Positions 24,192 through 28,826 of a DNA stretch of 64,000 bases are shown here, piece after piece (within the stretch, counting starts at the first letter, position 1; each line of letters starts with the position of its first letter). The notes under the pieces are model-generated. The model made no database searches. It saw only the letters and a program-made list of their open reading frames with translations, and was not told where the DNA came from. Source of the DNA: Halobellus inordinatus. Its GTDB lineage: Archaea > Halobacteriota > Halobacteria > Halobacteriales > Haloferacaceae. Made by a program: the position numbers and the translations under genes. Location: positions 124,001-188,000 of the forward strand of contig NZ_JANHAV010000004.1 of the NCBI RefSeq assembly GCF_024464655.1, written 5' to 3'.

Positions 24192-24599
24192 TCAATCGTC
24201 TTCCAGAGTCGAAAGTCGAGCCTGGATTTCATCAGCATCCGCCTTCGAAAGGGCTTCTACGCCGAACTGCACGAGGAGCGGGTAGAAGTGCCGGTTCTTT
24301 TTGAACTCGTCTTGACCCGCTTTTCGAAGCGTCAGCTGTGATTCGAGATAGGTGTCCTCCATCTCATCAAGAATGTTGTCCGGAATGTAGATGGTTCGCC
24401 CGTTCCACTCGTCCTTGATGTTCGTTTTCGTCTCACTCGTTTCACTCGTTTCGTTCGTTTCGTTCGAGTCCGATGATCCAGCCGAGGAACTCGTTTCACT
24501 CGTTTCGTTCACTTCACTCGTTTCGCTTGCATCGGCTTCGCCGTCCTCGTCGTCGTAGTTGCCCTCGATACCGGAGGCATCACCCCAGCCGTCAGTCAT
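24192..24599 (-). CDS. Small partition-partner protein with NET/SET repeats
   Basis: A 135-residue protein whose ATG overlaps the parA stop (ATGA). Residues 1-60 are disordered and built of repeated (N/S)ET units (EVNETSETSSS, SNETNETSETSETK). These are encoded by the same AACGAA-type DNA motif that fills the region upstream of parA. Residues 62-130 form the folded part (RTIYIPDNILDEMEDTY, GQDEFKKNRHFYPLLVQFG), resembling a small ribbon-helix-helix or other DNA-binding dimer. As partner of a ParA-type ATPase it is probably the centromere-binding protein. It is not related to classical ParB. Confidence 0.7.
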   Translation of the reverse strand: MTDGWGDASGIEGNYDDEDGEADASETSEVNETSETSSSAGSSDSNETNETSETSETKTNIKDEWNGRTIYIPDNILDEMEDTYLESQLTLRKAGQDEFKKNRHFYPLLVQFGVEALSKADADEIQARLSTLEDD

Positions 24600-25414
24600 A
24601 CGTCTACCTCCGCAGGTGCCGTCTTCTCGAACGTCTCGTCGAACAGGTCGGCGATCTCGTTGAACAGGTCCCGCGCGTCTTCGACCCGCTTGTTCTCTTT
24701 CCCGAAGCCGAAGACGGACACGCCGTCACCGATCGATTGCGAGAGGTCGGTGCGCTTTGGGATCTCGAAGACTGGGAGCGAGTACGCCGATTTGATCTCC
24801 TCGATTGTGTTCCGGTGTTCGGAGTTTTGCTCAACACGGTTACACACGATTGCAAGTCGGTTGATGTCACCGTACGCTGGTTCAAGCGAACCCAACTGCT
24901 TCGCGAATATCTGAAGACTGTTGGCGTTGAGTTTCTCGGGGATGACGGGGATGACGACGTTGCTGGTCGCGACGAGGGCGTTATCGGTGAGGACGTTCAG
25001 CGAGGGTGGCGTATCGACGATGATGTAGTCGTAGTTCTTGTCGAGTTCGTCGAGTGCCATTCCCAGCCGCTCACGACTCTTCGGAGCTTCGAGTAGCGTC
25101 TGGATGTTTTTGTTGTTCGCGAGCTTCTCACTGGCTGGTAGGATGTCGAACTCCTCGTGTTCGACGATGATGTCGTTCACCGACTCCATCTGATCGAAGT
25201 CGAGGACGTCGAAGAGCGTGGTCCGATCGGTGTCGTAGTACAGACCACTGTAGCCGAGAGAGCACGTGAGACCGCCGTGATAGTCGATGTCGACGAGGAG
25301 GACGTCGTAGCCGCGTGCTGCGAGTGCACCACCAGTGTGAATGACGTCGGTTGTCTTTCCCGCACCACCTTTCTGATTCGCCACCGTGATTCGTGCCGTG
25401 TTAGTTTCGCTCAT
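24596..25414 (-). CDS. parA: ParA-family partition ATPase
   Basis: The 272-residue reading begins at MSETNTARITVANQ; a start six codons upstream is less likely. It has the deviant Walker A of the ParA/MinD class (KGGAGKT), the VLLVDIDYHGG switch region and YDYIIVDTPPSL. ParA ATPases move plasmids or chromosomes along the nucleoid through a DNA-bound partner, here probably the overlapping downstream gene. There is no N-terminal DNA-binding extension, so it is of the short type. The 370-bp region upstream is packed with AACGAA iterons, a likely operator/centromere. This is the clearest sign that the window belongs to a low-copy secondary replicon. Confidence 0.9.
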   Translation of the reverse strand: MSETNTARITVANQKGGAGKTTDVIHTGGALAARGYDVLLVDIDYHGGLTCSLGYSGLYYDTDRTTLFDVLDFDQMESVNDIIVEHEEFDILPASEKLANNKNIQTLLEAPKSRERLGMALDELDKNYDYIIVDTPPSLNVLTDNALVATSNVVIPVIPEKLNANSLQIFAKQLGSLEPAYGDINRLAIVCNRVEQNSEHRNTIEEIKSAYSLPVFEIPKRTDLSQSIGDGVSVFGFGKENKRVEDARDLFNEIADLFDETFEKTAPAEVDV

Positions 25415-25800
25415 TCTTCTTGTTCCTCTCAATCAGTTCGTTTGATTCGTTTCTTTCATTATGCTCGTTTAGTTCGGTGCATTCAGTGAGGGATTTTCAC
25501 TTGGTGAGATGATGACGACGATGTTAAAACCATCCGTTCGTTGTACTCGTTGAATCGAACTTATTCGTTGAGTTCGTTACTCTCATTTCATTCGTTTTTA
25601 ATCGACCCCCCCCTTCGTTCACCTTTCTCGTCCCCTTCGTTACCTTCGTTTTTCTCAACGACTCTTTCCTATTCGATACGTCGACGGGAGTTCATTGCCG
25701 TAAATACATTCGTTCCGGTCACTGTTCTCGTTTTATTCGGTGTTTTAGTTTCATTCGTTCTCCTCATTCTATTCGTTACGTTCGTTTCTACATTCTCGGG
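25415..25800. repeat. AACGAA/TTCGTT iteron field upstream of parA
   Basis: I count about 13 exact TTCGTT hexamers plus many one-mismatch forms between 25430 and 25800, mostly spaced 10-30 bases. About five more occur at 24421-24520 within the partner gene. The stretch is pyrimidine-rich on the plus strand, with no credible gene. A centromere (parS-like) or iteron operator function is inferred from position. Confidence 0.6.
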
Positions 25801-25967: not shown

Positions 25968-28826
25968 TTATGCCGTTCTTTCAGAGCGGTCGAGAACACT
26001 CCGAACAAGATCCGCGATCTCCGCTTCCGACATCGGATCGACATCGACGCGGGACCCGTCAGCAGTATAGAAGACCCCTGCAGTCACGTCCTGGTCAGGG
26101 AACCACTCTTTCAGGACGTGGTAGTACACGCTGAGTTGCTTCCGGTACTCATCCGCGGCGTGCCGTCCGAGGTCGGTCTTGAAGTCGATGATCTCCACGG
26201 TATCGGGACGAATGTGCACGAGGTCGACGACTCCTGAGATGGTGACCTGCTCCCCATCGATGGTGAGTGGGAGATACGCGTCCTCCTCGACCCGTAGTTC
26301 TCCGCCAAGCGAGTCCAGGAACGATTTGATATGACGCTCGTCCTCGTTCGAGGGCTCGACGCCTTCTTCCAACACGTAGCGTTCAGCGAACTCGTGGGTC
26401 TCCGTCCCGAACGCGGTCCCTCTCCCGTCGTCGACGTCCTCGAACACGTCGTCGCGCATCAGCGTGTGTGGCGAGTGTCCGACTGGACCTTCTGGCGTCG
26501 GCACGGAAATCTGTAAGTGTGACTGCGTCGTCTCGCTGACGTCGTCTGCCCGAACGTCGGGTTCCAGTTCCTCGAGGTCGACCGGGAGTTCCTCGATGAA
26601 CGTGTTCGGAGACTCACCTGCTGCAAACACGAGATGGCTCTCTGCCCGGGTCATCGCGACGTAGAGCAAGCGGCGTTCCTCGTCGTACCCACGCGGCAGG
26701 CACTTCTGCAAGACGTCGGCCCGCCAGTTGTCGTGAATGTGGGGATACCCGTGGTCGTCGGCGTAGAGCTTCCGCTGGCGTAACCCGATCGGATCGTCGA
26801 ACGTGATCGCGTTACTGTTCCCACCCGACGGTGGGAAGCGACGAGCGTTCATATTCGCGAGCATGACGATGGGGTGTTCGAGCCCCTTCGCCGCGTGGAT
26901 GGTCTGGACGGTCACCGAGTTCAGACCAGCGCTCGCGTGGACCTCGTGGGTGCTTCCATCATCGATGCCGCGTTCGATGAACCGAATGAGGTCTCCTCGG
27001 GTCAACGTCGTCGCGTTGTGGACAGACTGTATCGTCGTCAGCAACACGTCGGCGTAGGCCCCGTCGTAGTCGTACTGAGAGAACACGCGCTGGGCAACGC
27101 CACCGACGGTCTCCAGTGACGCGAGCTCCGACTCGAACGCCTGCATATTGTCGGGGTACTTCTCGCTCTGGAGGACGTGTTTGACCTCGTCGAGCGTGTA
27201 CCCGGCTTCCTCGAGTACGACCGCCCAGCCTCGCTCGAAATCGGATTCGAGGATCCGCAGCCACGCCAAGAGGATCTTTGCCGGATCGGAACGGAACAAC
27301 TCGATGCCACCCTCGTACGCCATCGGCAACCCATACTCCTCGGCAACAGAGAGGAGTTCTCGGCCGAAGTCACGAGTCCGGGTGAGGACCGCGATGTCAC
27401 CGTACTCCGGGCAGCGAAGGTCGCCGTCCTCCTCGATCTGATACGCGTCGTTCCCGACGATCTCCTGAATCTTGGTCAGGACGGTCTCGTGTTCGTCTTC
27501 GTGTTGGACCGCCTCTATGTGGGAGTTCTCGTGCGCAGTATTCGAAGAGAGCGACACGATGCGGTCTCGGACGGCGGCCTCGTCGACGTCGTCCGTGCTC
27601 CCCGCGGGTGTCACCAGACTGTGTTCGGAGAAGTCGAGGATGTCCTGCGTCGACCGATAGTTCTCGACGAGTTCGATATCGGTGATCGGGCGGGTCGCCC
27701 ACGACACTCGCTCGTGGTCCTCATTGAGTTCGTCGACGAACCGATCCAGCCGGGATTCGAACTCAGTGATGTTCTCGACGGCAGCATACTGGAACGAGTA
27801 GATGCTCTGTTTCCAGTCGCCGACGACACAGACGTTGTTCGTATCCGCGAGCAAGAGTGCGAGTTTGAACTGGATCTCACTAGAGTCCTGGAACTCGTCG
27901 ATCATCACGTACTCGAAGGCGACGTCGTCGTGGAGTCGGTGATCCTCACAGAGTACGACGAACGCGAACAGTTGGAGGAAGCCGAAATTGAGGTAATTGC
28001 GGCTGAGCGCGAACTCTACGTACTCGTGGTAGACGTCGTGGACAAAGTTCTTGAGATCCTCTCGCTGTTCCTCGAACGCGAGCTGAGCGACGGCAGCAGG
28101 CACCTGCTTTTCTCCCCATCCGCCGCGGATCGCCTCTTTCTCGGGTGCGTCCGGGAGATAACACTTACCCTTCCCGTAGTCGCCGAGCTTCGAGCGCAGC
28201 TTGGACTGCTTGCTCCCGTCGTTTCTAGGTTGGTTCTGCTCGTCGAAGACCTCTCGGAACGACTCGAAGTTACCATCCAGATATCGCTCGCCGTTGCGAT
28301 ACCAGCCCTCGGCCGTCGGGAAGACACCTTTCGCCGCAAGCTGATTGATTAACCCGAGGAGTTCGACTGGTTCCTCGATAGCGCGGAAGAAGTCGTCGTA
28401 CTCGGGGTGATCGTCGCTGAAGCGCCGGACGAACTCGCGGAACTGCGCCTTCTCGACGTTCTCGTCTTCGAGGACTCGCGTCGATCCGGTGATGCGGTCG
28501 TCGATGCCGAGAAGCGCCGGTGCCTCGAAGCCGTGCTCCATCAGGATGTCGTGACAGAGGCTGTGGAACGTCTGTATCGGCGCGTCAGAGAGTTCACGCA
28601 TCCCGTAGTCACAGTGGGCGACGATTCGGTCTTTCATCTCCGCGGCCGCGTTGTTGGTGAACGTCACGAGGAGGACGTCCTCGGGCTCGACGTCGTCTTG
28701 GTCGACGATTTCGGCGTAGCGGCGGGTGACCGTGAACGTCTTTCCGGTCCCGGCACCGGCGTCGACGACGTGGATTCCCTGTTTGCTGTCGATGAGGTCT
28801 TGCTGACGATCGTTCGGCGAGGTCAT
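25968..28826 (-). CDS. AddA-like UvrD-family helicase with C-terminal nuclease domain
   Basis: A 952-residue protein. Superfamily 1 helicase motifs are in order: Walker A DAGAGTGKT near the N-terminus, VMIDEFQDSS, VGDWKQSIYSFQYA, ENYRS, VQTIHAAKGLEHPIVML and LYVAMTRAESHLVF. The last 150 residues hold a PD-(D/E)XK nuclease (GVVDLVHI, IIDFKTD, QLSVYYHVL). This is the architecture of AddA/RecB-like helicase-nucleases that resect double-strand breaks. Its ATG overlaps the stop of the AddB-like gene (ATGA), so the two are made together. It lies next to the partition genes; a role in repair or in limiting foreign linear DNA is possible. Confidence 0.9.
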   Translation of the reverse strand: MTSPNDRQQDLIDSKQGIHVVDAGAGTGKTFTVTRRYAEIVDQDDVEPEDVLLVTFTNNAAAEMKDRIVAHCDYGMRELSDAPIQTFHSLCHDILMEHGFEAPALLGIDDRITGSTRVLEDENVEKAQFREFVRRFSDDHPEYDDFFRAIEEPVELLGLINQLAAKGVFPTAEGWYRNGERYLDGNFESFREVFDEQNQPRNDGSKQSKLRSKLGDYGKGKCYLPDAPEKEAIRGGWGEKQVPAAVAQLAFEEQREDLKNFVHDVYHEYVEFALSRNYLNFGFLQLFAFVVLCEDHRLHDDVAFEYVMIDEFQDSSEIQFKLALLLADTNNVCVVGDWKQSIYSFQYAAVENITEFESRLDRFVDELNEDHERVSWATRPITDIELVENYRSTQDILDFSEHSLVTPAGSTDDVDEAAVRDRIVSLSSNTAHENSHIEAVQHEDEHETVLTKIQEIVGNDAYQIEEDGDLRCPEYGDIAVLTRTRDFGRELLSVAEEYGLPMAYEGGIELFRSDPAKILLAWLRILESDFERGWAVVLEEAGYTLDEVKHVLQSEKYPDNMQAFESELASLETVGGVAQRVFSQYDYDGAYADVLLTTIQSVHNATTLTRGDLIRFIERGIDDGSTHEVHASAGLNSVTVQTIHAAKGLEHPIVMLANMNARRFPPSGGNSNAITFDDPIGLRQRKLYADDHGYPHIHDNWRADVLQKCLPRGYDEERRLLYVAMTRAESHLVFAAGESPNTFIEELPVDLEELEPDVRADDVSETTQSHLQISVPTPEGPVGHSPHTLMRDDVFEDVDDGRGTAFGTETHEFAERYVLEEGVEPSNEDERHIKSFLDSLGGELRVEEDAYLPLTIDGEQVTISGVVDLVHIRPDTVEIIDFKTDLGRHAADEYRKQLSVYYHVLKEWFPDQDVTAGVFYTADGSRVDVDPMSEAEIADLVRSVLDRSERTA

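Follow-up and report, generated by a model that had tools for sequence, protein, structure and literature searches.

The window, a stretch of 64,000 nucleotides corresponding to positions 124001 to 188000 of a 301-kb contig of Halobellus inordinatus (here C18), carries on its reverse strand a gene for a ParA-like Walker ATPase of 272 amino acids (24596 to 25414; Pfam AAA_31, 2.3e-35) and a small partner gene of 135 amino acids (24192 to 24599), also on the reverse strand, that overlaps the end of parA. The AAA_31 match starts at residue 9 of ParA, and the N-terminal helix-turn-helix domain is absent. The partner is laid out as a disordered N-terminal tail (approximately residues 1 to 64) followed by a C-terminal domain (approximately residues 65 to 135). 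Upstream of parA lies a 386-bp spacer that bears the repeats described below, and beyond this spacer and a further stretch there is a UvrD-like helicase gene at 25968 to 28826. Three traits of a small-ParA (type Ib-like) system are present, namely a ParA with no helix-turn-helix, a small overlapping downstream partner, and a direct-repeat array upstream.

A preliminary description of this DNA had reported about 13 TTCGTT hexamers between 25430 and 25800, where chance was said to predict 0.1 to 0.2. We counted 13 exact copies in the spacer, from 25437 to 25786, and none of AACGAA on the opposite strand. The quoted expectation, however, was too low, as the local dinucleotide content predicts 2.1 copies, with a maximum of 8 in 5000 local dinucleotide shuffles. 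Because the shuffle maximum is only 8, the observed 13 copies still lie far outside chance. The hexamers form part of an array phased at 9 bp with a weaker half-step of 4/5 bp: base matches within the spacer peak at lags of 4/5, 9, 13/14, 18, 22/23, and 27, and the match at lag 9 is 0.40 versus 0.29 ± 0.02. On the coding strand, the iteron unit across 43 loci reads AAyGAAcrr. The array, on the reverse strand, is divided into an upstream block of 9-bp iterons at 25537 to 25789, which contains 11 exact AACGAA copies plus degenerate units, and a leader block at 25437 to 25478, lying between the putative promoter and the parA start, which contains 2 exact copies plus degenerate units and is retained in relatives at roughly -10 to -60 from the ATG. 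Between the blocks is a gap (25479 to 25536, same strand) with a TTTTAAC element that is probably the parA promoter. The size of the gap is constant, with 82 bp between the neighboring hexamers in 24 loci, and TTTTAACA within it is retained in the loci inspected. Since the gap encloses this probable promoter, iterons lie on both of its sides. A structured RNA or DNA role for the array was rejected, as no Rfam match was found and shuffled versions of the array fold better than the array itself (z = +1.7).

The motif reappears inside the partner gene, where in-frame iterons (24421 to 24530, reverse strand) made of GAA ACG AGT/AAC triplets encode a tail of SET/NET repeats. Five exact TTCGTT copies fall between 24421 and 24509, in line with the roughly five that had been noted for 24421 to 24520, and these coding iterons are spaced like those of the upstream array, by steps of 9 bp and 4/5 bp. 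An iteron period spans three codons, which allows the array to be translated in frame into a low-complexity tail, here a series of (S/N)-E-T triplet repeats. In 43 tails, AACGAA occurs 140 times, compared with 15.7 ± 3.8 for codons drawn anew according to parA usage and 68.5 ± 6.1 under a stricter null that shuffles synonymous codons inside the tail. For the partner core of the same 43 loci, the count is 3 versus about 1 to 2 expected, which is no clear excess. In several conserved-residue columns of the tail, ACG, GAA, AAA, or AGT is the sole codon used (share 1.00), while the mean codon share in parA, given for comparison, is 0.78 for threonine (T) and 0.88 for glutamate (E). This codon excess, along with the invariant tail codons, therefore indicates that the DNA motif is maintained more strictly than the protein requires. 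Recent slippage in 9-bp steps could mimic part of the codon signal, but hardly the invariant orthologous columns. The coding DNA of parA itself has zero motif copies in the window, and 43 loci together yield 9 copies versus 8.8 expected, which is no excess. Consequently, the array lies to either side of parA and does not run through it, so the earlier suggestion of a centromere spanning the operon is not established in that form.

C18 was scanned in 360-bp segments with a position-weight matrix built without the window. The densest segment is 25423 to 25782 with 31 units (C18 mean, 1.2), followed by the partner tail with 14 units and a distal intergenic patch with 11, and all other segments have 8 or fewer. 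A similar density elsewhere would have spoken against a dedicated site; the peak lies here and the rest of C18 is much lower. The genome has only six perfect TTCGTT-n3-TTCGTT doublets: the spacer accounts for four of them, and the partner tail and the distal patch, which is about 34 kb from the array, have one each. The patch (C18:114440-114799) lies approximately 9.2 to 9.6 kb to the left of the window, between two regulator-like genes, and contains five AACGAA copies among its 11 units. It is possible that it serves as a second partition site. Distal AACGAA doublets in other genomes were mostly coding and concentrated in two recurrent genes, one of which resembles a VirB4-like ATPase gene, and they were not counted as belonging to the system. 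Doublets resembling AACGAACGAAACGAA are found in the coding sequence of one conserved gene with no known family, carried by large plasmids of other haloarchaea, where the protein motif is RNERNEF or RNEQNEF (L056-L062, L064, L066, L067, L069, and L070). AACGAA steps are seen again in a 775-amino-acid VirB4-like conjugation ATPase that ends with ATNGTNETSELN (L063, L065, and L068).

Related loci are present in many haloarchaeal genera. In 39 plasmid records, parA is 90 to 95% identical, after which identity drops to about 42%. Taken across many haloarchaeal genera, identity is 85 to 95%; with almost nothing between that and 42%, the cassette appears to have been transferred very recently or repeatedly. 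All 43 assessable loci carry 7 to 17 AACGAA copies within 420 bp upstream of parA, almost all of them pointing the same way and spaced at 4, 5, 9, 18, 27, and 45. With the window included, the array is present in 44 of 44 assessable loci with an intact pair, so the motif loss in homologues that would have weakened the proposal of a centromere was not seen. The borders of the array are sharp, as AACGAA density per 100 bp is 3.1 to 3.9 from -330 to 0, falls to 0.02 to 0.06 beyond -420, and is 0.04 downstream of the partner. The window spacer shares a mean identity of only 59% with the spacers of its relatives, yet the array is found in each of them, which shows that the array is retained while the surrounding sequence drifts. 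On one plasmid of a Haloferacaceae archaeon, XH8, the locus is present twice, and the iteron spacings of L027 and L029 are the same; the tblastn alignment of the second copy covers only parA residues 1 to 176.

The partner protein has no Pfam or NCBIfam family and no sequence match in the PDB, and its core matches phrog_29165 and phrog_26668 in PHROGs, both of unknown function. Structure prediction on a shallow alignment gave a pLDDT of 49, and a core-only model reached a pLDDT of 85 with an extended segment followed by helices. A Foldseek search of the core model against the PDB and BFVD returned no significant match. We suspect that the core is ribbon-helix-helix-like, as the model is compatible with one half of such a fold; since no structural match was significant, this is a fold that we infer. 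In the clade that includes the window, the tail starts with a nearly invariant W-G-x-A-S-G-I-E-G-N-Y. The tail encoded in the window has no arginine or lysine in residues 1 to 57, and thus no candidate for an arginine finger like that of ParG, while arginine-rich N termini are found in many divergent relatives.

A profile search found the partner family in 113 of 292 Halobacteria genomes, divided into the window clade and a divergent group. Forty divergent loci were fetched, 35 of which have a recognizable parA on the same strand, and parA and the partner overlap by 4 or 8 bases in most of them. The divergent cores align, the tail sequences differ, and these loci use motifs other than that of the window clade. 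Their tails show a period of three residues, or 9 bp (z = 20), and identical residues share the same codon at a rate of 0.60 for lags of 3, 6, and 9 versus 0.33 to 0.43 for other lags. The short leader before parA likewise has a 9-bp step (z = 5.2). A general test for k-mers co-occurring in upstream DNA and tail was dropped as unspecific because the partner core, used as a control, was raised almost as much, and it was replaced by a local match with synonymous resampling. The segment shared by leader and tail exceeds the synonymous null in 19 of 40 loci (13 at approximately p = 0.01 or below), although these 40 include four window-clade loci and related groups and do not represent 40 independent events. 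In the controls, leader sharing was seen with parA in 1 of 40 loci and, at an intermediate level, with the partner core in 10 of 40. Since the core, too, is above chance, the leader matches more than the tail alone. Shared segments include GAAACGATCGAAACG (L137 and L160, inverted in the leader), TCACAGAACGCACAGAACG (L140), AAGAACG (L134), and CAGACAAACCAG (L145). The idea that one motif is used both as a noncoding array and as code for a tail, first raised for the window, is supported by the synonymous-codon tests and by distant families with other motifs.

Members of the family are also found in haloviruses, as gp54-gp53 of phiH1 and gp53-gp52 of ChaoS9, while single-sequence viral scans for two partner types gave no matches. 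Both viruses resemble the window in pairing an annotated ParA-like gene with an overlapping uncharacterized partner of the same family, and the ChaoS9 tail contains a run of in-frame GAAACGACT. They differ from it in having another iteron motif and no evident extended upstream array, and in having, close to the start of parA, a GTCTGACG box that is absent from the window clade. A GTCTGAC(G/A) box, mostly 41 to 60 bp before the parA start, occurs in 29 of 39 divergent loci and in none of the window clade, and is perhaps a promoter-linked operator. In a Halococcus plasmid (L076), a pyrimidine array of CTCTTTATC / CTCTTTGCT lies upstream of parA with the same 9-bp period as the window clade but a different motif, which is unmatched in the partner tail.

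We consider it probable that this is a small-ParA partition locus, that its partner binds the iterons as both centromere and operator, and that the partner gene itself contains part of the site. Binding, partition function, autoregulation, and fold are all properties that we infer. On the model of ParF-ParG-parH and delta-omega-parS, the partner most likely uses its C-terminal domain to coat the iterons and directs its N-terminal tail to ParA. In this mechanism, the predicted and probably ribbon-helix-helix-like C-terminal domain would bind the 9-bp direct iterons AAyGAAcrr, and the upstream iterons on both sides of the promoter would serve as centromere and autoregulation operator. The bound partner would then offer its disordered tail to nucleoid-bound ParA-ATP and stimulate ATP hydrolysis, by which plasmid copies would be moved apart. 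The iterons in the tail codons would constitute a second block of the same site. A broader proposal, which we advance only tentatively, is that the disordered tail is a translated centromere throughout a widespread family of haloarchaeal plasmids and haloviruses, in which the 9-bp iteron doubles as binding site and tail code, specificity and tail co-evolve, and the gene itself is the main centromere in ChaoS9-like members.

As an alternative, the array could be centromere and operator while the in-gene repeats are no more than a low-complexity tail that 9-bp slippage produced, perhaps from a seed in the array, and that still resembles the array. Tail indels are mostly three-codon steps in the alignment, three-residue repeats are found in divergent tails too, and identical codons are a natural product of slippage. 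The orthologous tail codons, however, are invariant in about 40 loci while those of parA vary, distant families, whose motifs are different, again show agreement between tail and leader, and the 4/5-bp half-step is common to coding and noncoding copies, and we therefore regard tail repeats without a binding role as rather unlikely. It is more doubtful still that the array acts solely as an autoregulatory operator while partition proceeds through another site such as C18:114440-114799. Such an arrangement would fit the placement of iterons to either side of the putative promoter, as well as the third iteron cluster about 34 kb away, but some 30 units over 350 bp far exceed what an operator needs, the distal patch is small at 11 units, and a single array serves both roles in known systems (PMC9499535, PMC7308502).

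Iteron arrays are also common at plasmid origins and C18 has three strong orc1/cdc6 genes, so the repeats might instead be bound by a replication initiator (Orc1/Cdc6 or RepH). The strong matches are at 46.6, 90.1, and 104.7 kb of C18 and the array is at 148 to 150 kb, and this distance of more than 40 kb makes an origin unlikely. In addition, the array of relatives stays with parA and the partner, no annotated replication gene adjoins these two genes in the plasmid neighborhoods examined, and the motif changes along with the partner family, all of which leaves an origin with very little probability. The least credible explanation is a compositional accident of an AT-rich, T-biased spacer without function. 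Local composition does raise the expected count to 2.1, but the 9-bp phasing, the restriction to a single strand, the sharp borders, and the persistence of the array in 44 loci at about 59% identity leave this reading almost no probability, and we consider it refuted by conservation.

In a review of archaeal segregation, what constitutes a centromere on chromosomes and plasmids is listed among the questions still open (PMC5120986). We found no description of a haloarchaeal centromere in the open-access literature, although an unlisted account of this locus may exist. The locus offers a concrete candidate for archaeal plasmid centromeres, with exact sequences and a partner family of unknown function, and the system is carried by the model replicons pNG600 of Haloarcula marismortui, phiH1, and ChaoS9. 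It also suggests a way for the same bases to serve as a repetitive DNA site and to encode a disordered tail.

Known small-ParA systems have short direct-repeat arrays over their promoters (PMC9499535, PMC7308502). The ParF-ParG-parH system of TP228 resembles the window in its small ParA, its small partner with an unstructured N-terminal tail, and its array of degenerate boxes, and ParG combines the roles of centromere binding and repression (PMC7308502). In contrast to parH, which consists of tetramer boxes with AT-rich spacers, the window has a 9-bp unit with a 4/5-bp half-step that recurs inside the partner gene, and its tail lacks the arginine finger that ParG has. The delta-omega-parS system of pSM19035 shares with the window contiguous short nonpalindromic repeats over promoters and a small partner, and full ParA activation there needs a minimum of four repeats (PMC9499535). 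Its repeats, however, are 7-bp WATCACW units in both orientations at six sites, whereas the window has 9-bp AAyGAAcrr units in one orientation at one main site plus the coding copies.

Among archaeal systems, SegAB of Sulfolobales is like the window in having an archaeal ParA, an overlapping downstream DNA-binding partner, and sites upstream of the operon (PMC12284271). The SegB site is a chromosomal 13-bp palindrome (core AGAg/cTCT), unlike the direct repeats in one orientation described here, and no inverted repeat of the SegB type was found in the region of the window locus. The AspA-ParB-ParA system of pNOB8 is likewise an archaeal plasmid partition system with its site upstream of the operon, but it differs from the window in having three genes and a 23-bp palindrome (PMC5120986). 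A parallel for a site within the partner gene is ParA-ParT-parS of the Streptomyces plasmid SCP2, in which parS lies within the coding sequence of the DNA-binding partner ParT, so this part of our interpretation has a precedent (PMC12260392). In SCP2, the site is a single 18-bp inverted repeat and the partner is ParB-like, whereas in the window a periodic array encodes the tail and is accompanied by a noncoding array. What differs from SCP2 is an array that is both periodic and translated.
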